Shown one piece after another: positions 20,039 to 31,990 of a DNA stretch of 64,000 nt (positions are counted from its first letter, which is position 1; each line of letters opens with the position of its first letter). The notes beneath the pieces were generated by a model, which searched no databases, was not told the origin of the DNA, and saw only the letters and a program-made list of their open reading frames with translations. Source of the DNA: Sulfurovum sp. NBC37-1 (lineage in GTDB: Bacteria > Campylobacterota > Campylobacteria > Campylobacterales > Sulfurovaceae); the NCBI RefSeq assembly GCF_000010345.1, contig NC_009663.1:1054001-1118000 (forward strand), given 5' to 3'. A program made the position numbers and the translations under genes.

Positions 20039-20072
20039 TCTAAATTACTATTTATAAATGATAATCATATGC

Positions 20073-20078
20073 TATAAT
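20073..20078 (+). promoter_or_regulatory. -10 element placing Sir2 mRNA start at its ATG
   Basis: Perfect TATAAT ends six bases before ATG 20085. Transcription from this promoter would begin at or next to the A of the start codon, i.e. a leaderless mRNA. No Shine-Dalgarno is present upstream, in agreement. Confidence 0.5.
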
Positions 20079-20084
20079 TTCCAG

Positions 20085-20900
20085 ATGTACGAAAAAGAGA
20101 TTGAATCAGCACAAAAGGTTTTGAATGAAACCGATGCACTTTTTATTATGGCGGGTGCCGGGATGGGTGTGGACAGCGGACTGCCTGATTTTAGGGGTGT
20201 AGAAGGTTTCTGGAACGCTTATCCAAAGGTAAGAGAACTGGGGTTACGGTTTGAAGAGATGGCCAATCCGGAGTGGTTTGAGAATGATCCTCATCTGGCC
20301 TGGGCATTTTACGGACACAGACTCCACCTTTACCGTGAGACCGAGCCGCATGAAGGGTTCATAAAATTGCTTTATTTGGCTAATACTAAAAAATATGGAA
20401 GTTTTGTTTTTACCTCCAATGTCGATGGACAGTTCCAGAAAGCGGGCTTTGCCGAAGAGCGGATTATGGAGTGTCACGGCTCCATTCATCATCTGCAATG
20501 TCTCGACAATTGTCAGGGAATGATATGGAGTGCCGAGGATATACAGATCGAGATCACGGATGATTTCAGAGCGAAAGATCCTCTGCCGGCCTGTCCGTTC
20601 TGTGGCGCTGTGGCACGGCCCAATATCCTGATGTTCGGTGATTATGGCTGGGAGTATGCACGTACGGACGGACAGAGGGAACGTCTGGCCAAATGGATGG
20701 AAATGATGGAAGAAGAGGAAGGAAAGCCGGCGATCATCGAAATGGGTGCCGGAACAGCCGTCGCCACCGTGAGGAACACTTCCGAACAGATAGCAGACAG
20801 ATTCGATGTTCCGCTCATACGTATCAACCCAAGAGAGAGTTTCGGTGCACAGGTAGAATTGCCTATGGGCGCACTCGAAGCTTTGTCCAATATTATTTAA
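20085..20900 (+). CDS. Sir2-family NAD-dependent protein deacylase
   Basis: A 271-residue sirtuin. AGAGMGVDSGLPDFRG forms the NAD-binding loop, SNVDGQFQKAGF and CHGSIHHLQC the catalytic region with its histidine, and C-x-x-x-C plus CPFC give a zinc ribbon. A RPNILMFGDYGWEYART segment follows. Deacylates lysines or uses NAD in other ways; a defence sirtuin is less likely given a plain housekeeping neighbourhood. The in-frame ATG at 20058 lies upstream of the predicted -10, so ATG 20085 is used. Confidence 0.85.
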   Translation: MYEKEIESAQKVLNETDALFIMAGAGMGVDSGLPDFRGVEGFWNAYPKVRELGLRFEEMANPEWFENDPHLAWAFYGHRLHLYRETEPHEGFIKLLYLANTKKYGSFVFTSNVDGQFQKAGFAEERIMECHGSIHHLQCLDNCQGMIWSAEDIQIEITDDFRAKDPLPACPFCGAVARPNILMFGDYGWEYARTDGQRERLAKWMEMMEEEEGKPAIIEMGAGTAVATVRNTSEQIADRFDVPLIRINPRESFGAQVELPMGALEALSNII

Positions 20901-20906
20901 AATGAC

Positions 20907-21488
20907 TTGTATATGCGCTGTTTCTCCTGCTCAAAACTAAGTCTTGATATCCTTTGCGAACATTGTCAAGAGACTCTGTTCATGCCCACGGTAAAGACCC
21001 GAACAATCGGTACTTTGGATGTCATCAGCTTTTTCAGATACAGTACCCTTGAGCCTCTGCTTCATACCAAGCACAAACCCGAAGGATACCGTGTTTTCAA
21101 GAAGCTTGGAAAACTTTTTCTCAAGCCCTTCATAAAAGAGTTCGTTGAAAATGACGAGGGTAGGGTCTATATTGTTGGGATCGACGAGTATGTCAGGAAT
21201 GGATATTCGCACGTTGCACTGCTGACCAGGACAATGAAGTGTAAACAGGCCCTTCCTCAGCATGCTTCACTATTGGCAAGGAACAGGGTGAATTATTCAG
21301 GGAAGCCACTGCAATACCGTCTGGATCATCCCAGGGATTTTATCTATACAGGCAAAAAAGGTGTTGATGTCATATTGGTCGATGATATCATTACTACGGG
21401 AATAACACTTCAGGAGGCACAAAAGGTGCTGATAGAACATGATGTCAATGTATTGTTCGCTCTGACTCTTGCTGATGTAGAGGAGTAG
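20907..21488 (+). CDS. ComF-like phosphoribosyltransferase
   Basis: A 193-residue protein with an N-terminal C-x-x-C / C-x-x-C zinc knuckle (CFSCSK...CEHC) and a C-terminal PRTase domain with the PRPP loop VILVDDIITTGITLQEA. This is the ComF layout; ComF is needed for DNA uptake in naturally competent species. Starts at TTG 20907 or ATG 20913, just after sir2, so likely cotranscribed. Confidence 0.85.
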   Translation: MYMRCFSCSKLSLDILCEHCQETLFMPTVKTRTIGTLDVISFFRYSTLEPLLHTKHKPEGYRVFKKLGKLFLKPFIKEFVENDEGRVYIVGIDEYVRNGYSHVALLTRTMKCKQALPQHASLLARNRVNYSGKPLQYRLDHPRDFIYTGKKGVDVILVDDIITTGITLQEAQKVLIEHDVNVLFALTLADVEE

Positions 21489-21498
21489 GGTATATTAA

Positions 21499-22611
21499 CT
21501 ATGCAAAAACAACCTGGTTACGTCCCTTTCTCTTGGCCTTGTAAAGGCTTTCGTCTGCAAGCCTGTAGATCTCCTGGTGATTGAGCCCGTCTTCAGGTGC
21601 CTGGATATATACACCTATGGAACATGTCAGGATATTTGTATCGGGATTACCGCTATGCTCTATCTCTTTTTCATTAAGTTTTTCCATAACAGTATTGATA
21701 AGAGCATGTATGTTCGCAATATCTTCATCCAAAATGATGCCGGCGAATTCCTCTCCACCCATACGGAAGATATAGTCATCACTTTTGTTAAATACTTCCT
21801 TTAAGGTTTCAGCGATCTGTTTTAGAGCCCAGTCGCCCTTTTGATGTCCATACGTATCGTTATACTGTTTGAAGTAATCAAGATCAAGTGTGAAGAAAGT
21901 GAGAAATTCTTTGTTGCTTTTAGCCTTAAGTATCTGTCTTGGAAATATCTCTTCAAAAAAACGTCGGTTATAGAGTGATGTCAGTGTATCGGTGATGGAA
22001 AGCTTCTCAAGCAGTTTCATCTGCAGTTTCTCTTTTTGTCTCAGTTTTTCAATCTTTGAATTGGCACTTTCAGTACTGTGCTGGATAGTATATATGACAT
22101 AAAGCATTACAAAGTGTGCAAGGGAAACTCGTAAAAAGGTTTTCTCATTCCAGTCATTGTTGTCCCATATACCTATACCGTTGTAGGTAAGAGCCAAAAG
22201 AACCATAATAAAAGTAAAGGAGACTATCAGACCACGCTTCGCACCAAGTGTAATAATGGCAAAAGGTGTAAAGAAATATGTCCATATGAGTGTGTAGTTC
22301 TCACCGTGCTTTATGAACGCAAGAGTAAGAAAGGCAATGAAAAGTGTTGCATTCCCCATATAGCTTGCAGTTACATGCATTTGTTTTTCTCTTAGCAGGT
22401 AGAGGGCAAAACCTATGAATGTTATCATGAACAGATTCACATAAAAAAGTGTATATTCGTGTATTCCGAACAGATTGATGAAGACAAACAATATATTGAT
22501 GATAATGGTGATAAAGAACATTGCATTGAGAAGAAGGATCTTTGTCTGGAGCGGATTATAGTCATTATATTCGAATGATCCTATGATCAGTTCTTTTAAC
22601 GTTGGTTTCAT
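21499..22611 (-). CDS. Membrane-bound diguanylate cyclase
   Basis: A 370-residue protein with six or so transmembrane helices (residues 25-175), a short coiled-coil linker and a GGDEF domain (about 205-370) carrying an active-site GGEEF and LDLDYFKQYNDTYGH. It makes c-di-GMP in response to an unknown membrane signal. No I-site RxxD is obvious before GGEEF. Monocistronic, convergent with the comF-like gene. Confidence 0.9.
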   Translation of the reverse strand: MKPTLKELIIGSFEYNDYNPLQTKILLLNAMFFITIIINILFVFINLFGIHEYTLFYVNLFMITFIGFALYLLREKQMHVTASYMGNATLFIAFLTLAFIKHGENYTLIWTYFFTPFAIITLGAKRGLIVSFTFIMVLLALTYNGIGIWDNNDWNEKTFLRVSLAHFVMLYVIYTIQHSTESANSKIEKLRQKEKLQMKLLEKLSITDTLTSLYNRRFFEEIFPRQILKAKSNKEFLTFFTLDLDYFKQYNDTYGHQKGDWALKQIAETLKEVFNKSDDYIFRMGGEEFAGIILDEDIANIHALINTVMEKLNEKEIEHSGNPDTNILTCSIGVYIQAPEDGLNHQEIYRLADESLYKAKRKGRNQVVFA

Positions 22612-22661: not shown

Positions 22662-23765
22662 CTATATTTTACCTTCAAGAAAATGTTCGAATATCTCAGT
22701 CACAAGTGCAATGCGCTCCTGAAAACTCTTCTTGGAAGCTCTCTCATGGATAGTGTGGTCCCCATCACCGTAAGGCCCCCAGCCGTCCAGGGTAGCTACT
22801 CCCTGGGAGGAGACAATGTTCGCATCGCTGACACCGCCGCGTTTTTCTGTAGGTAACACGATATCGCAGACATCATTGATATTGTCAATGAAGGTCATTT
22901 GTGCAGGAGAGGGCTGCATAACATCTCTTTGTATGCTACCGGAAAGTACGGATTCTGTACCGTCCACATAGGCACACAAGACGATCTCATCGATTGCCTT
23001 GAGTACCCTGTCTCTTTCATGGGTGTTGGTATAGCGCAGCTCAAATGTAAGGTGGGCATGGGGTGAGATGGTATTGGCACCTATGCCGCCGCTGATCTTT
23101 CCGACATTCACGGTGGTCTCTTTTTCAAGATCTGTCAGGGCTACGAGTTTTTGCAGTTTGATTGCTGCTTCAAGGTTGGCATCGGCACCTTTGCTGTAAT
23201 TGTTTCCTGCATGTGCTGCAACCCCTTTGATATCGATGAAGAAGGTGCCGACACCTTTTCTTCCTACAACCACTTCATTGTGCAGCCCTGCGGCTTCAAA
23301 TACCATGCAGTAGTCATATGCTTTTGCCAGTTTGGCAGAGAGGTGTTTACTGTCATCGCTGCCTGTCTCCTCATCACTGACGAGGAGGAAGTCGATATTG
23401 TGTATCTCACCGAATTTTCTGTGGACATTTCTCAGGGCCTGAAGTGCGACATAGTTGCCGCCTTTCATGTCGCAGACACCCGGACCGTAGATCCACTCTT
23501 CATCTTCTGTGAATTTTTCGAAGGTACCGTGAGGAAAAACGGTATCAAGATGGCCAAGCAGCAGCAGTTTTTTTCCTTCTTTTTGTGTGGAAGTGAGATG
23601 CAGGTGATCACCTATCTCTTCGCGAGGGTACCTTGTGAGTGTATAGCCGAGCTCTTCCAGCCAGTAGGCGAAGATCTCTCCGTTACGGTCAACGCCTTCT
23701 TTGTTTTTCGTCCAGGAATTGATCTTGATGATCTTCTTGAGTTCTGTAAAATCGATTTCGGCCAT
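22662..23765 (-). CDS. M20-family metallopeptidase (carboxypeptidase G2-like)
   Basis: A 367-residue two-zinc peptidase. LLLGHLDTVFP and GPGVCDMKGG hold the first ligands, VSDEETGS the catalytic and bridging Glu, and GDGDHTIHERA the C-terminal His. The internal dimerisation domain has GVAAHAGNNYSKGADAN. Architecture matches carboxypeptidase G2 (glutamate carboxypeptidase)-type enzymes that remove a C-terminal acidic residue. It is cytosolic, with no signal peptide. Divergent from the ATP-grasp operon across 104 bases, suggesting joint control and opposing chemistry. Confidence 0.85.
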   Translation of the reverse strand: MAEIDFTELKKIIKINSWTKNKEGVDRNGEIFAYWLEELGYTLTRYPREEIGDHLHLTSTQKEGKKLLLLGHLDTVFPHGTFEKFTEDEEWIYGPGVCDMKGGNYVALQALRNVHRKFGEIHNIDFLLVSDEETGSDDSKHLSAKLAKAYDYCMVFEAAGLHNEVVVGRKGVGTFFIDIKGVAAHAGNNYSKGADANLEAAIKLQKLVALTDLEKETTVNVGKISGGIGANTISPHAHLTFELRYTNTHERDRVLKAIDEIVLCAYVDGTESVLSGSIQRDVMQPSPAQMTFIDNINDVCDIVLPTEKRGGVSDANIVSSQGVATLDGWGPYGDGDHTIHERASKKSFQERIALVTEIFEHFLEGKI

Positions 23766-23839
23766 ACTGCTTCCCCCAAAAGTGATGATTTAATTACGTT
23801 TTTGTAATGATTCTCTGAAGATATTTTAGTAAATTATAG

Positions 23840-23845
23840 TAAAAT
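23840..23845 (+). promoter_or_regulatory. Predicted -10 of the ATP-grasp operon
   Basis: TAAAAT in a run of AT-rich DNA, 24 bases ahead of the start at 23870, which has a strong GAGGAGA. The spacer is shared with the divergent M20 peptidase gene. Confidence 0.4.
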
Positions 23846-23869
23846 TATACATTAATTAGAGGAGAACAT

Positions 23870-24769
23870 ATGTCAAGAAAAATCGGTATGTGGTTGTATA
23901 GTAACGGCGGCGGGGACAAGATACAGAAAAAAATCGTCAAACAGCTCAAAGAGAGGGATATTGAGACCATTACCGATATCAATCTGCGACATGCAGTAGC
24001 GAAGAACGGACATATCCTTCATGACAAACTGAGAGTGGAGGAACTTGACCTCTTCTTCTCCTACAACGCTGGAGAGCAGACACAGTACCAGGTCTTTCTA
24101 TACCAGGCACTCAACAGGGTGATTCCGATGATCAATACGTATGATGCCTTTGCGTTGACGGAAGACAAGTTTCAGACTTCTTTTCTTCTCAGACAGCACG
24201 GTGTTGCTACGCCGAGTTTCAAGCTCTGCCACAGAGATGACGGACATGAACTCAAAAAGATCATCAAAAAGTGGGACAAAATGGTCTATAAGCCTACAGA
24301 CGGCTGGGGCGGTGTAGGACTTACCAAGATCGAAAGTGAAGCGACACTCGATACCCTGCTTCCCTTCCTCAACCAGATGGACCTTCGTTTCTTCTATGTG
24401 GAAAAATTCGTCAACTATGACAATACGGACTTCCGTGTGGACATCGTTGACGGTGAGTTCGTAGGATGTTACGGAAGAAAAGCAAGTGGAACGGATTGGC
24501 GTACGAATGTGACAAGCGGTGGTTCTGTCTTTATGCGTGAGCCTAATGACGACATCATCAATCTTGCGAAAAAGGCTGCAAAGGTTTGTGGTACGGATAT
24601 TGCGGGAGTGGACATCATTTATGATCTTGAACGTGAAGAGTATGTGGTACTGGAAGTCAACGGCATTCCCGCGTTCGCCACACCGGAACAGGAGAAGATG
24701 GGACTGAACTTCAATGATAAAAAGATCGACCTGATCGTGAATCTGATCGACAGAAAAACAAAAAAATAA
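23870..24769 (+). CDS. RimK-like ATP-grasp ligase
   Basis: A 299-residue ATP-grasp enzyme of the RimK group, which joins a carboxylate to an amine through an acyl-phosphate, often adding glutamates. Seen: KPTDGWGGVGLTKI (small-domain Gly loop), DFRVDIVDGEFVGCYGRKA, DWRTNVTSGGSV, AGVDIIYDLE and metal-binding VLEVNGIPAF. The full catalytic set is present. The N-terminus (MWLYSNGGGDKIQKK) is atypical. First of a three-gene operon with another ATP-grasp and an M14 carboxypeptidase. Confidence 0.85.
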   Translation: MSRKIGMWLYSNGGGDKIQKKIVKQLKERDIETITDINLRHAVAKNGHILHDKLRVEELDLFFSYNAGEQTQYQVFLYQALNRVIPMINTYDAFALTEDKFQTSFLLRQHGVATPSFKLCHRDDGHELKKIIKKWDKMVYKPTDGWGGVGLTKIESEATLDTLLPFLNQMDLRFFYVEKFVNYDNTDFRVDIVDGEFVGCYGRKASGTDWRTNVTSGGSVFMREPNDDIINLAKKAAKVCGTDIAGVDIIYDLEREEYVVLEVNGIPAFATPEQEKMGLNFNDKKIDLIVNLIDRKTKK

Positions 24770-24787
24770 AATTTGAAAGAGAAAAAA

Positions 24788-26218
24788 ATGGCAAAAAAGA
24801 AAAAACAACAAAAACTACCAAAACTGGGACTGCTCTATCTTGATTACGTATTGAGATTTTTTGACAAATCGAACTTCAGAGGCTGGCCGGATAAGATCGA
24901 AACGGTGACGTATCACTGGAAGAACGATAAAGAGAGATTCATCAAAGAGGTGAAAAGAAAGAAGATCGATGTACTCATCGGTAACATTCCCGCAACAGCG
25001 TATGAGACATTCAGAGAGATCGCCAGAGAGTTGCCGCATGTGCAGTTCATCCCTTCCATGGATACACAGTTCTCCAACAAGTCAAAAGAGAATGTGACAC
25101 GTTTTGCATGGAAATATGATATACCTATCCCTAAAACGTATATCTTCTACGATCACGACAAAGCGAACAAGTTCATCGATGAAACGAAGTTTCCGAAGAT
25201 CATCAAGAAGTCTTACGGTCCTTCAAACTACGGGGGATATTTCGTCCACAAGGTAGATTCTGCACAGGAAGCCCATAACCTTCTGGCACAGAAGAAGTAC
25301 CATCCTGTCTATATGCAGGATTTCGTGCCTATGGAAGCGGATGTCCGTGTGATGCTCATCGGCCACAAGCCTGTGTGTGCTTTCTGGAGAAGACCGCCTG
25401 AAGGCGAGTGGCTGACCAATACTTCACAGGGCGGAAGTATGGACTATATGGATGTACCCAAAGAGTTACTTGACCTTGCCGTCAAGGTTTCCAAAGCTGC
25501 CAATGCAGAGTACTGGGCCTGTGATATCGCCGTAGGCCAGGATGGCAAATACAGGATCCTTGAGTGTGCAACGGCTTTCGCTGCCTTCCCGTACATCAGG
25601 GACTGGATAGGCCAGTACCTTATGTGGAAATTCTCCAACGGAAGATTCCCGTTACCGAACATGCCTCTGTACAACTGGGAAGAGCTCGGCAAGATGGACG
25701 CTTCAGTGCTTAGAACACTGCGCTACATTACTTTCGGACGCTATACACCAAGCTATGACGGTGCATTCTTCCTTGACAGCAAGACCAAAGAGACCGAAGA
25801 GGGTGAAATGTATCTGCATGAGCTGGATGCGCTCTATCCTGTACTTAATACATACACGCGTACCAAAGAAGAGTGGCCAAGCGAAAAATGGAATTTCCAG
25901 GACAATTACGGGAAAAGTATTAGAAAAGTACATGCTCAAAGCAATCCGCACTATAACGACGAGGATGAGAATTCAGAGTCTGCAGAGCAGGAGAATATGA
26001 TTGAGCTTACAGAGAAAAAAGTTGAAAAACTTCTGACTTCTGTAGAGGGCATCGGTAAAAAGAAAGCTGAAAAGATCATGGACAAGTTCGATACGACAGA
26101 ATTGGTACATGCCCTTGAGACCGCTCCTGAAAAGCTTGTAGAAGAGATCTCATGGTTCAAGAAAAAATTCCTGACCAGACTTCAGAAAGAATGGAAAGAG
26201 TTTAAGAAGAAGCTCTAA
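24788..26218 (+). CDS. ATP-grasp protein fused to a helix-hairpin-helix domain
   Basis: A 476-residue protein with a Lys-rich start, a pre-ATP-grasp domain, and an ATP-grasp core (KFPKIIKKSYGPSNYGGYFV, DVRVMLIGHKPVCAFWRR, TNTSQGGSM, WACDIAVGQDG). The metal-binding segment reads ILECATAFA, lacking the Asn of the usual E-x-N, so chemistry may be altered. After an acidic linker (about 390-415) comes LLTSVEGIGKKKAEKIM, a helix-hairpin-helix of the kind used for DNA or protein binding. ATG 24788 is preferred over TTG 24773, with GAAAGAG upstream. Both ATP-grasp genes are 18 bases apart. Confidence 0.8.
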   Translation: MAKKKKQQKLPKLGLLYLDYVLRFFDKSNFRGWPDKIETVTYHWKNDKERFIKEVKRKKIDVLIGNIPATAYETFREIARELPHVQFIPSMDTQFSNKSKENVTRFAWKYDIPIPKTYIFYDHDKANKFIDETKFPKIIKKSYGPSNYGGYFVHKVDSAQEAHNLLAQKKYHPVYMQDFVPMEADVRVMLIGHKPVCAFWRRPPEGEWLTNTSQGGSMDYMDVPKELLDLAVKVSKAANAEYWACDIAVGQDGKYRILECATAFAAFPYIRDWIGQYLMWKFSNGRFPLPNMPLYNWEELGKMDASVLRTLRYITFGRYTPSYDGAFFLDSKTKETEEGEMYLHELDALYPVLNTYTRTKEEWPSEKWNFQDNYGKSIRKVHAQSNPHYNDEDENSESAEQENMIELTEKKVEKLLTSVEGIGKKKAEKIMDKFDTTELVHALETAPEKLVEEISWFKKKFLTRLQKEWKEFKKKL

Positions 26219-26230
26219 TTACCAATAGTT

Positions 26231-26309
26231 GGAAGTGAGATGTTTCACCCAAGGGCATTTCCTTCGGTCACACTCACCATAGAGGTGGGACTGAAGTCTC
26301 CACTTCCAT
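26231..26309. repeat. Hairpin-bounded spacer before the M14 gene
   Basis: GGAAGTGAGA (26231-26240) pairs with TCTCCACTTCC (26299-26309) around a loop with internal CACC/GGTGG complementarity. A 35-codon ORF (26240-26347) lies across it, but its product does not look like a protein. Probably a dispersed structured element or an operon-internal RNA fold. Confidence 0.4.
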
Positions 26310-26391
26310 ATATGGTCTATAGATCAGTTCAATACGGATATTGAATTGATTTATATATCCAACGAATATTACTTAAAGAGAACAGATACCA

Positions 26392-28971
26392 ATGAAAAAT
26401 CAATATATGTCATACCAGGAGAGCCTGGAATTTCTTCATGCCATGGAGAAACAGTACCCCGATCTCATCGAGGTCATCAAAATAGGTACTACCTATGAAG
26501 GACGTGATATCGTCCTTGCCAAGATATCAAACAATGTCGAGACAGCAGATGAAAAGCCGGCATTGCTTTATACCGGGAGTATCCATGCCAGAGAGTGGAT
26601 CGGACATGAACTGGCACTCAAGTTCATCAGCCATGTTGTCCAGAACCGGACTGTAGACCCTGTACTTGAAAAAGCATTGGAAGAATCCACTCTCTATATG
26701 GTACCCTGTCTGAACCCTGACGGGTATGAGTATTCGCGTAAACACTTTTCTTTCTGGAGAAAGAACCGCCGCAAGAACCATGACGGTACTTACGGAGTGG
26801 ATTTGAACAGAAACTTTTCTATAGGTTTTGTTAAACAGAAAGACACGAGTTCCAATGTGTACGGCGGGGAAGAACCGTTCTCAGAGGCAGAGACAAGAGC
26901 CATCAAAGAGTTTGTCGATGCCCATGAGAACATCACCATTGCACTGGATTATCACTCCCAGGGGAATGTCTTTTTCCCTGCCCACAAATTTAAGCATGAA
27001 GCAGAGATGAACGGTACCGATATGAACGTGATCGCTGCGAACATGAACGATGAGTTCGTTAAGATCACGGGAAGAAAGTACGGTATCCACCGTGGTAAGC
27101 CGCCTGCACATCTCATCAGTGGAAGCGGAAGGGAATACTACTACTCCAGAGGGATCATTGCACTAGTCGTGGAAGTGGGAACAAAAAATATTCCTGATTA
27201 CATGAAAAGTATGAGCAGCAGTATCCATGAGAATATCCCGGCACTCATTAAAACCTTCTCCGAAGTCATCAACTACTCTTCCTATGCACCAAGGAGGGTG
27301 GAGGACTTTACCATTGATGACAGGACACCCAGTTCTGTTACGCTGGTATGGAAATATGAAAAGCGTGATGACATTTTCTTTGAGATATACCGAAGTACCA
27401 AAGACAAGGATGCCTGCAATGAACGTACGAAAGTCGGTATAGCGGGAGAGAACAGTTTTGTAGATACGGACCTTGAGAGTTCGACCAACTATCACTATAC
27501 CATCCGTGCTGTCAATAAGAATACTTCCTTCAAATCACCGTTCGCACCGGTGGTCAAAGTAAGAACGAAACTCGATGACGATGAGTTCTTTAAACTGATC
27601 TTTGCATCTAAAGACGGAACTGGATATGTAGGACAGTACACACAGGAGCAGAACCGTTCACACTTCGGGCTCAACTCGCTTTTTGTGGGTATCAACAAAT
27701 CCAAAGGTATCTGTGATGCCGTTGCCACGATCGACCTGAGTGCCTTGCCGAAAAATGCCATAATCAAATCGGCTCGTTTCTACCTCTATCCGATGAACAG
27801 GGTAGGTGCAAAGATCGAAAAGTTCGGCCAATGGGACCTCTCCCTGCTCAAACACGGCAGTTTTTCAGAAATAACTGATTTTAATGAGATAGAAAATGCC
27901 GAGTCCAAGGGGATCATCGGGCAGGCGATCAAGTCACGTCAGCTGACACAGGGTATCTGGAACTTCTGGGAGTTCTCGCAGAGAGAGTGTGAAATGCTTC
28001 AGGAGGAGATAGAGAACAAACAGGCAGTCTTCAGGATCGATGGGCCGAAATACCTTCCGGATGGAGAAGACAGCCAGATGATGCAATTTGATATCGGTTA
28101 CGGACAGTTTGGTGGAGGGATCCATTACCGTCCGATGCTTGATATCAAATATACCGTCAAGAATGAAAAGATAAACCTTCCGGTACAGACTTTCACTACT
28201 ATCTCAAAAGAAGGTGTGGATGAATCTGTGCTGCAAAGCGGTTTCGATGCCAATGGTGACAAAGTATACGGTTATCTTGATTTTGATCTTTCGCAGCTGC
28301 CGGAACATAATAAAACGATGATCATACAGTGTGCTTTGAAAATACGCAACAAGAATACTTTTAAAAAGAAGACGGACATCCGTTTTTATGTGGAACTGGT
28401 GGAGATCGGTGAAGCAGGAACCTATGAAGATATCAAAAACCGTGAGAAGATCGAATATATCGGTTACGAAGTAGCGGAGTCTGACCTCAATGCCAAAGAG
28501 TATCAGTATTTCAATTTCGATACGCTTTCCAGACAGGTACTTGACGAACTGCACCAGGAAGGCAAGACCCTAAAACTGGTCATAAAGCCAACGTCGGCGC
28601 TGGGTGCGAAGAACCGCATTACCACATGGAATGAAGATGTCGCGCTTGTCGTCAAATACATTGAAAAACGCAGAACACCTGTTGCTGCGGTTGAAAATGT
28701 CAAGATAAGCAAAGAGAACAGGATGATTAAACTGTACTGGGACAAAGTGGAAGACGAGGCACTGAGCGGCTATTATGTCGTGCGTAACAGCTTTCATCCG
28801 CCAAAACACTTTATGGATGGCGTCAAGCTTTACGGAGGGAAAGATACCTGGACCTATGACAACTTTGCTGCCTTTGATACAGAGAAGTATTATGCAGTAT
28901 TCTCCTATGATGATGTACCGAATTTCTCCAAACCGGCCATCGTACGCTATGACCCGCTGGAGAAGTATTAA
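26392..28971 (+). CDS. M14 zinc carboxypeptidase with Fn3 and DNRLRE-like domains
   Basis: An 859-residue protein. Residues 5-300 are an M14 carboxypeptidase with zinc ligands H65 and E68 (SIHAREW), a third His in LDYHSQGN, the substrate Arg region DLNRNF and catalytic Glu in VVEVGT. A fibronectin type III-like domain (about 305-390), two beta-rich DNRLRE/carbohydrate-module-like domains (about 395-590 and 595-765) and a last Fn3-like domain follow. No signal peptide is present, odd for such domains, so it likely acts in the cytosol or leaves by another route. Third gene after the ATP-grasp pair, 173 bases on. Confidence 0.85.
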   Translation: MKNQYMSYQESLEFLHAMEKQYPDLIEVIKIGTTYEGRDIVLAKISNNVETADEKPALLYTGSIHAREWIGHELALKFISHVVQNRTVDPVLEKALEESTLYMVPCLNPDGYEYSRKHFSFWRKNRRKNHDGTYGVDLNRNFSIGFVKQKDTSSNVYGGEEPFSEAETRAIKEFVDAHENITIALDYHSQGNVFFPAHKFKHEAEMNGTDMNVIAANMNDEFVKITGRKYGIHRGKPPAHLISGSGREYYYSRGIIALVVEVGTKNIPDYMKSMSSSIHENIPALIKTFSEVINYSSYAPRRVEDFTIDDRTPSSVTLVWKYEKRDDIFFEIYRSTKDKDACNERTKVGIAGENSFVDTDLESSTNYHYTIRAVNKNTSFKSPFAPVVKVRTKLDDDEFFKLIFASKDGTGYVGQYTQEQNRSHFGLNSLFVGINKSKGICDAVATIDLSALPKNAIIKSARFYLYPMNRVGAKIEKFGQWDLSLLKHGSFSEITDFNEIENAESKGIIGQAIKSRQLTQGIWNFWEFSQRECEMLQEEIENKQAVFRIDGPKYLPDGEDSQMMQFDIGYGQFGGGIHYRPMLDIKYTVKNEKINLPVQTFTTISKEGVDESVLQSGFDANGDKVYGYLDFDLSQLPEHNKTMIIQCALKIRNKNTFKKKTDIRFYVELVEIGEAGTYEDIKNREKIEYIGYEVAESDLNAKEYQYFNFDTLSRQVLDELHQEGKTLKLVIKPTSALGAKNRITTWNEDVALVVKYIEKRRTPVAAVENVKISKENRMIKLYWDKVEDEALSGYYVVRNSFHPPKHFMDGVKLYGGKDTWTYDNFAAFDTEKYYAVFSYDDVPNFSKPAIVRYDPLEKY

Positions 28972-29745: not shown

Positions 29746-30414
29746 ATGGCAAAAATTGCTATTGTACAACTGTTTATGAGTATGTTTAAAACAAAAAAAG
29801 CAAAGGCATCTCAAGTAGAAGAGAGAAGGGAAGAAGTGCATTTGGCAGAAGAGACAGATGCACAAACTCAGGTAGCGGATAGTTCTGCTGAGAAAGAAAT
29901 ATCTCAAACAAAAAAAACACCTGTGAAGAAAAAAGCTGTTAAAAAAGAAGCAAAAAATACCGGTAAAACAAAAGAAGCCGCTGTAAAACCCAAGCCAAAA
30001 ACAAAAAAAGCAGCAGCAAAGAGTACTGCATCTAAAAAAGAAACCGCAAAACCCAAAGCAAACAAAACAACCAAAGGTTCAAAAAAAGATGCGAAGATTG
30101 CACTTTACGCAAAAGATATAAAGAAGCACTACAAGGAAGTAGATAAAGATTTTTTAGCCATCATTGTAAAAAATCTCGGGCCGTCCATCTATAGAAAAGA
30201 TGCTGAATTAGTCTCCTGTTCCGACCCCAAAGAGCTCGATACAGTCAGAAAGAATTTTCTTGTTAAAAAATTGGGTTTGAAACTCAGCAAAGAAGAACTT
30301 GATGCAGTCATTCAGGAAGTATGCCAGGAGTTAAAAGGTACACGGACAAAATACCGTGCAACTTTTTATTATAGACTTGCACAAAAATTTAACAAAGAAT
30401 CTGCATTGAGCTAA
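29746..30414 (+). CDS. Histone H1-like tail fused to DUF2853
   Basis: A 222-residue protein in two parts. Residues about 60-115 are Lys/Ala/Pro/Thr-rich repeats (KKTPVKKKAVKKEAKN and similar), like the C-tails of bacterial H1-like proteins and AlgP. Residues about 117-222 match DUF2853 (KDIKKHYKEVD, then LVSCSDPKELDTVRKNFLVKKLGL and TFYYRLAQKF). The basic tail suggests nucleic-acid or polyanion binding; DUF2853 has no known function. The short N-terminus is mildly hydrophobic and then acidic. Confidence 0.75.
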   Translation: MAKIAIVQLFMSMFKTKKAKASQVEERREEVHLAEETDAQTQVADSSAEKEISQTKKTPVKKKAVKKEAKNTGKTKEAAVKPKPKTKKAAAKSTASKKETAKPKANKTTKGSKKDAKIALYAKDIKKHYKEVDKDFLAIIVKNLGPSIYRKDAELVSCSDPKELDTVRKNFLVKKLGLKLSKEELDAVIQEVCQELKGTRTKYRATFYYRLAQKFNKESALS

Positions 30415-30583: not shown

Positions 30584-31990
30584 ATGATGAAAGAAAACAA
30601 AACACTTAAACAACTGCTGGAAATTTCCGAAGGCAAAAAACTTCTTTTTCTTGGAAAAGAGGGGATCTTTACCGAAAAGGAGAGAGAGCGTTTTTTGAAG
30701 AAGTACAGGATCACGGCGACCCAATATCTTGAAGAGGATGTGGTTGGCGTAGTGGAGTATCACAGGCTCAATCCGGTCGAAGAGGACATTTCCAACGATG
30801 CCTATGATCGTAAACTGCCTCTTTTCAAGCTGAACGTATTTGAGCATCTTCTCTCAGAAGAGATCGATGATGATACACTTTTAATGGCGATCAGGCTGGG
30901 GAACGACCAGGAACGGATCGTCAGGCTGCTTGGGAATGAACATCTTACAGATGAACTCTTTGTCCGACTGCTTAAACTGTACCGCTTTGATGAAGATGAG
31001 GAGGACAACCGTCAGGACCGTGATGTCATTATGTACACACTGCGCCGCTACATTGAGATCAGGCCCAATGAAGAGGATCTGCTTTATACCTACCTGACAC
31101 TCAGGCGGCTGGCAACGGAAGCGACCGACCCGGAGCTGCTTATGGCTTTGCTGGGCTTTCCGAATTTTAAATTCCTGGTACGGGGAAGAGAGAAGGTAAG
31201 CCTGCGTGAGACCATCGCAAGGAATCCTGCGCTGAATGAAGAACTTATACGAAAACTGCTCTCTTTCAGAGATAGTAGGGTCAATGCTGCGCTGGCTGGT
31301 AATCGCGCTGTAGGGGAAGAGACGTTGAAGCTTCTGCTTGACAGGAATGATGCACAGACAAACAAAGCGCTGGCGACAAACCCTTCCATCGATGATGAGA
31401 TATTTACTGCTTTGCTGGAAAAGGGAGAAGAAGTCGTCTCGCTGCTGCTGATACATCAGCCTATTGACGCTGTACGTCTGGAAGTGATTGAAAAGTCTGG
31501 AGTGGACGAGCACCTTTTTGCACTGATAGGGCACAACAGCAGTTTGGCAATGAAGGTGATAGGTAAACTGCTGGAAAAAGGAAGTGCAGAGCTTTTGGAA
31601 GCTCTGAGCGGGAACAAAGCTGTTTCTTCCGATGTGCTGGAGCTTATTTACCAGCATGACGAAGTGGAGGACTTTGTACATCTGGCACGAAACCCCTCTA
31701 CACCGCTGTGGATTCTTCAGGCACTTTACGAAGAGAATATGGAGAGCCCGGAAATGCTTGTGGCGCTGGCACACAATCCGTCTCTGCCAGAAAGGATACT
31801 TCGGGAACTCTTCGCCAAGGAGCAGCTGGAGATCAATCGTGGCCTGGCGAGTAATGCTTCTCTGCCGCTGGAACTGCTTGAGGAACTTAAAATAGATACC
31901 CGCCTGCAGAATGAATTGGCTCAGAATAAGAATTTGATGCGGTCATATGAAGCGGTTCTGAACCAGAGTAAAGTAATAATCAATATTTGA
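30584..31990 (+). CDS. Leucine-rich-variant (LRV) repeat protein
   Basis: A 468-residue soluble protein. From about residue 190 it consists of repeats of roughly 24 residues with the pattern LAxNPSxxxExLxxLL (for example ALATNPSIDDEIFTALLEKG and LAHNPSLPERILRELF), as in LRV or HEAT-like solenoids that bind proteins. The N-terminal 180 residues are unassigned. TATACT sits at 30572-30577, only seven bases before the ATG, and no ribosome site is seen, so the mRNA may be leaderless. The MoxR-type gene follows 73 bases on. Confidence 0.7.
   Translation: MMKENKTLKQLLEISEGKKLLFLGKEGIFTEKERERFLKKYRITATQYLEEDVVGVVEYHRLNPVEEDISNDAYDRKLPLFKLNVFEHLLSEEIDDDTLLMAIRLGNDQERIVRLLGNEHLTDELFVRLLKLYRFDEDEEDNRQDRDVIMYTLRRYIEIRPNEEDLLYTYLTLRRLATEATDPELLMALLGFPNFKFLVRGREKVSLRETIARNPALNEELIRKLLSFRDSRVNAALAGNRAVGEETLKLLLDRNDAQTNKALATNPSIDDEIFTALLEKGEEVVSLLLIHQPIDAVRLEVIEKSGVDEHLFALIGHNSSLAMKVIGKLLEKGSAELLEALSGNKAVSSDVLELIYQHDEVEDFVHLARNPSTPLWILQALYEENMESPEMLVALAHNPSLPERILRELFAKEQLEINRGLASNASLPLELLEELKIDTRLQNELAQNKNLMRSYEAVLNQSKVIINI

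Follow-up and report, generated by a model that had tools for sequence, protein, structure and literature searches.

Four neighbouring genes, encoding two ATP-grasp ligases, an M14 carboxypeptidase and an M20 peptidase, behave as one inherited unit in the Campylobacterota. We propose that they specify an intracellular pathway in which acidic residues, most likely glutamate, would be added to and removed from an acceptor whose gene would lie elsewhere in the genome, an explanation that we consider about evenly poised between right and wrong. The genes lie in a window of 64,000 nucleotides (the whole stretch of DNA analysed, positions 1054001–1118000 of a single-contig, 2,562,277-base Campylobacterota genome), and their coordinates are given in Table 1.

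Table 1. Features of the four-gene module (positions are those of the window).
Feature	Position	Strand	Evidence
M20-family peptidase, CPG2-like, 367 aa	22662–23765	−	PF01546 4.5e-21; 1cg2 alignment
Divergent spacer M20/ligase 1, 104 bp	23766–23869	.	
Ligase 1 (G1), RimK-type ATP-grasp, 299 aa	23870–24769	+	PF08443 1.2e-18
Ligase 2 (G2), RimK/LysX-type ATP-grasp with C-terminal helix-hairpin-helix (HhH), 481 aa	24773–26218	+	PF08443 5.1e-17
Ligase 2 metal-site motif Glu-Cys-Ala, residues 264–266	25562–25570	+	Alignment
Ligase 2 HhH domain, residues 419–475	26027–26197	+	Domain search
Spacer ligase 2/M14, 173 bp, imperfect inverted repeats	26219–26391	.	
M14 carboxypeptidase, 859 aa, C-terminal fn3 and DNRLRE-type domains	26392–28971	+	PF00246 3.8e-57
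M14 Arg247 codon (position 255, bovine CPA numbering), S1′ specificity residue	27130–27132	+	

The first-pass annotation had described two ATP-grasp enzymes, an M14 and an M20 peptidase at 22662–28971, and all four were recovered there as open reading frames of the families named. Its domain list was correct at the level of families but missed the HhH domain of ligase 2 and the fn3 and DNRLRE-type domains of the M14. The absence of signal peptides, which it had also asserted, is supported by inspection by eye: the catalytic folds of the M20, ligase 1 and ligase 2 begin at or close to the N terminus, and the M14 has no N-terminal extension, its domain match running from residue 13 and its homologues beginning at the same point. 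Ligases 1 and 2 are only 3 bases apart on the plus strand. The listed start of ligase 2 is a TTG, but translation more probably begins at the in-frame ATG at 24788.

The annotation had held that its reading would fail if the genes did not occur together elsewhere. We searched 60 relatives with each of the four proteins and, in a second survey, 397 Campylobacterota genomes with an alignment of each of the four families. The reading came through this check: the distribution was close to all-or-none, with the set complete in 50 of the 397 genomes, absent from 342 and partial in 5. Counted singly, the families were carried by 51 (ligase 2), 53 (M14), 52 (ligase 1) and 53 (M20) genomes; pairwise Fisher p-values, which ignore shared ancestry, were about 1e-58 to 1e-64. 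The genes were also mostly contiguous: all four were found together in 42 of the 50 complete genomes, with the M20 on the same strand in 24 and divergent, as here, in 18. In five genomes, all from family f16, ligase 2 was far from the other three and the set was nevertheless complete. When neighbourhoods were counted at 80 loci of the phylum, many of them on truncated contigs, the four module families were present at 77, 68, 59 and 59 loci, and the next commonest family at 14. By the p-values above, the grouping of the genes is far above chance expectation. No linked carrier, precursor or acceptor gene recurred in the 80 loci (ORFs of 60 aa or more).

The module was found in 25–26 of the 68 sampled genera of Campylobacterota, and its distribution inside genera was patchy. 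It was also present outside the phylum. Each of the four proteins gave a strong full-length tblastn match at one place in the gammaproteobacterium Photobacterium sp. DA100, with identities of 50% for the M14, 57% for ligase 2, 53% for ligase 1 and 57% for the M20. The genes there are ordered M20 (divergent), ligase 1, ligase 2 and M14, matching the window in both order and orientation. In the M14 tree the Photobacterium sequence falls inside the Campylobacterota, on a long branch and with moderate support (90/80), and members of one family group with other families; the ligase 2 tree had little resolution for most of its branches. The mixing of families in the M14 tree, taken with the patchy distribution within genera, suggests horizontal movement. 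A same-genus genome without the rest of the module has fragments of the M14 C-terminal tail, containing stops, at a contig end (locus L059, G029:C41:95-593), which are possibly the remnant of a decayed module.

By sequence and fold the M14 belongs to the CPA/CPT type. It has the HxxE...H zinc site together with the equivalents of Arg127, Asn144, Arg145 and Glu270 (CPA numbering), and the catalytic residues H65, E68, R123, N139, R140, H188 and E261 are conserved. Every PF00246 match over the cut-off in the 60 relatives was the module's own M14. Its R247 aligns with Ile255 of CPA4, and arginine occupies this position (255 in CPA numbering) in all 110 distinct M14 homologues, including being kept in the Photobacterium protein. 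Among eight unrelated control bacterial M14s from plasmid records, none had Arg255; the residue there was Thr, Asp or Ile. In carboxypeptidase O, Arg255 confers specificity for acidic C-terminal residues, and Xenopus Cpo.1, which has Arg255, cleaved a Glu-Glu substrate and left Phe-Ala and Phe-Phe uncut (PMC9925722). The module M14 therefore carries the basic residue at 255 that marks acid-specific members of the family and, by this known rule, is predicted to be specific for acidic C-terminal residues. Its likeness to human carboxypeptidase O lies in this arginine, the acidic C-terminal specificity being that of CPO; CPO is extracellular and GPI-anchored, whereas the module M14 looks cytosolic and has a long C-terminal tail. 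This non-catalytic tail of ∼550 residues, containing the fn3 and DNRLRE-type domains, is conserved in the sampled sequences.

The closest solved relative of the M20 is CPG2, at 144.7 bits compared with 79.6 bits for the next different enzyme, and with both catalytic and dimerisation domains present the protein can be classed as a CPG2-like M20. CPG2 releases C-terminal glutamate. Alignment to 1cg2 predicts a zinc site formed by H72, D99, E132/E133, E157 and H337; the zinc residues and the conserved Arg of the substrate region align between the two proteins, and R169-K170 and R280 of the module M20 are conserved. Lys208 of CPG2 is not conserved, a GRKG motif being found there instead. The score against the glutamate carboxypeptidase model PRK06133 was 180.3 bits, under the NCBIfam cut-off of 349. 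Unlike CPG2, the module M20 has no visible signal peptide.

Both ligases score well above the PF08443 gathering score of 21 (67.8 bits for ligase 1 and 62.5 for ligase 2), and neither reaches the more specific models: the RimK equivalog PRK10446 (49.6 and 17.7 bits, respectively; cut-off 331), the TIGR00768 RimK-family alpha-L-glutamate ligases (132.4 and 86.7 bits; subfamily cut-off 143.4) or LysX. Ligase 1 is closest to RimK and ArgX/LysX. Its metal and ATP-grasp residues are intact (D248/E262/N264, K141 and R189), and the Asp, Glu and Asn metal ligands are complete in 110 of 110 sequences. Ligase 2 keeps the Asp and Glu and has alanine in place of the metal-binding Asn in all 163 sequences, giving Glu-Cys-Ala where RimK- and LysX-type enzymes have Glu-x-Asn. 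As this motif is invariant, ligase 2 may be a specialised enzyme or a partner subunit; judged from its sequence, it may catalyse no ligation of its own. Its nearest relative by sequence is LysX, and the top fold matches to its model (of low confidence, mean pLDDT 59.6) were ArgX-LysW-Glu, LysX and RimK-RpsF, all of which attach amino acids to protein C termini. LysX-type enzymes use alpha-aminoadipate, which we counted against the reading that we favour. The first-pass annotation had suggested reversible tagging, for example with glutamate; the invariant Arg255 of the M14 and the CPG2-like M20 favour glutamate, but the atypical metal site of ligase 2 means that this protein may not ligate in the same manner. 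The type of the terminal HhH domain of ligase 2 varies by lineage, HHH_3/ComEA-like versus HHH_5/RuvA-like (L234 and L026 versus 26027–26197 of the window), as if the domains had been swapped.

The pairing of a ligase that writes with a peptidase that erases is known from other systems. In the RimK/RimB polyglutamylation system of Pseudomonas, Glu that an ATP-grasp ligase has attached to the C terminus of ribosomal protein S6 (RpsF) is taken off again by a protease (PMC11957791). The module resembles this system in logic only, having two divergent ligases and two metallo-carboxypeptidases and no retropepsin, the class to which RimB belongs. That the module is a RimK/RimB variant acting on S6 is highly improbable, even with a shared ligase superfamily and the same writer and eraser logic. 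Neither ligase passes the RimK cut-offs, whereas canonical RimK genes of the relatives do so at 349–375 bits against PRK10446; these are separate from the module ligases, and one coexists with the module in genome G001. We rejected S6 as the acceptor, its C-terminal tails being alike in module-positive and module-negative genomes and ending in Ala in this genome. The module is not the known RimK/S6 pathway. An amino-group-carrier pathway, in which a ligase would load the C-terminal Glu of a carrier and the M20 would free the product, is somewhat closer to hand and still improbable. The LysX/ArgX, LysW and LysK system combines a RimK-type ligase with an M20-family hydrolase (LysK was among the NCBIfam matches), and ligase 2 is nearest to LysX by sequence and to ArgX/LysX by the fold of its low-confidence model. 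The module differs in having two ligases, both under the LysX cut-off, an M14 with no role in the LysW pathway, and no carrier gene. Because no such gene is linked (80 loci, ORFs of at least 60 aa, with short internal spacers), the module is not a LysW system by this linkage test.

The main rival to an acidic tag on a macromolecule is a small acidic peptide metabolite, such as a stress or osmotic solute, which the two ligases would assemble as a di- or tripeptide and the two peptidases would break down for re-use. Small-molecule enzymes do occur in the M20 and RimK-like families (MptN, CofF and CPG2-like matches), and the 80 loci held no linked gene for an acceptor protein. Against this, the conserved M14 tail and the HhH-like C-terminal domain that ligase 2 has in the sampled sequences better suit a macromolecular partner, and the fold matches of ligase 2, from a low-confidence model, are ligases of protein tails; we therefore regard the small peptide as unlikely, while giving it real weight. 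Peptidases and ATP-grasp enzymes are common enough for unrelated amino-acid salvage genes to become neighbours by chance. We assign this almost no probability, as it is contradicted by the near all-or-none distribution, by the retention of the full set where ligase 2 has separated and by the same block in another phylum. A graspetide cluster was also considered and rejected, since the graspetide survey mentions no M14, M20 or carboxypeptidase. A search of the open literature found no description of the four-gene unit.

In the pathway that we favour, an acidic amino acid would be joined at the expense of ATP, through an amide or peptide bond, to a carboxylate of the separately encoded acceptor. 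Ligase 1 would catalyse this step, perhaps together with ligase 2, in the manner of RimK, LysX and ArgX. The M14, through Arg255, would trim C-terminal acidic residues from the macromolecular product, which its fn3/DNRLRE tail may help to hold, and the CPG2-like M20 would hydrolyse released or small Glu-conjugates, returning the amino acid. Ligase 2, which has the Asn-to-Ala change and the HhH domain, may steer the chemistry towards a nucleoprotein, or it may be a specialised companion of ligase 1.

Reversible glutamylation is well documented among eukaryotes, and what is known of it in bacteria comes mainly from RimK and S6. In the eukaryotic tubulin code, the writers (TTLL ligases) are ATP-grasp enzymes and the erasers of acidic residues (CCP deglutamylases) belong to M14. 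The module has a CPA/CPT-type M14 and RimK-type ligases in a bacterial gene cluster, and its likeness to TTLL/CCP is again one of logic only. We tentatively suggest that it could be a prokaryotic counterpart, a mobile bacterial protein-tagging system in which an operon-encoded pair of writers and M14/M20 erasers of C-terminal acidic residues act on a macromolecule other than S6, although we lean against this broader reading. If true, it would provide a compact and testable second bacterial glutamylation system in which the pocket of the eraser predicts its own specificity.

The first-pass annotation had also placed all four genes under one regulatory spacer. The divergent spacer between the M20 and ligase 1 does exist, but the M14 has its own spacer upstream and the divergence is not conserved. 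The M20 and ligase 1 are adjacent in 48 genomes; they diverge in 19 of these and share a strand in the other 29. The 173-bp spacer before the M14 gave no Rfam match and no regulatory RNA was found in it; in several relatives the gap between ligase 2 and M14 is only 5–30 bp. The element at 26259–26298, considered as a local repeat, is present as a single copy in the window. A promoter scan of the region returned 9 sites compared with 10.1 expected from shuffles, which is no excess, and no defence system was matched by PADLOC.

Canonical RimK genes were noted in relatives at L361, L363 and L365 (and L362, L364 and L366). Among genomes of the same genus, those lacking the module more often had extra RimK-like copies than those carrying it, a possible anti-correlation. 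Near the module, 30584–31990 (+) encodes an LRV/DUF2336-like repeat protein whose family is the commonest other neighbour (14 of the 80 loci), and 29746–30414 (+) encodes a DUF2853 protein whose N-terminal part is a long stretch rich in Lys and Ala that resembles histone H1. Just upstream, 20058–22611 holds genes for a Sir2-family protein, a phosphoribosyltransferase-like protein and a MASE6-like/GGDEF diguanylate cyclase; the Sir2 family is found at 5 of the 80 loci and the phosphoribosyltransferase-like family at 8.
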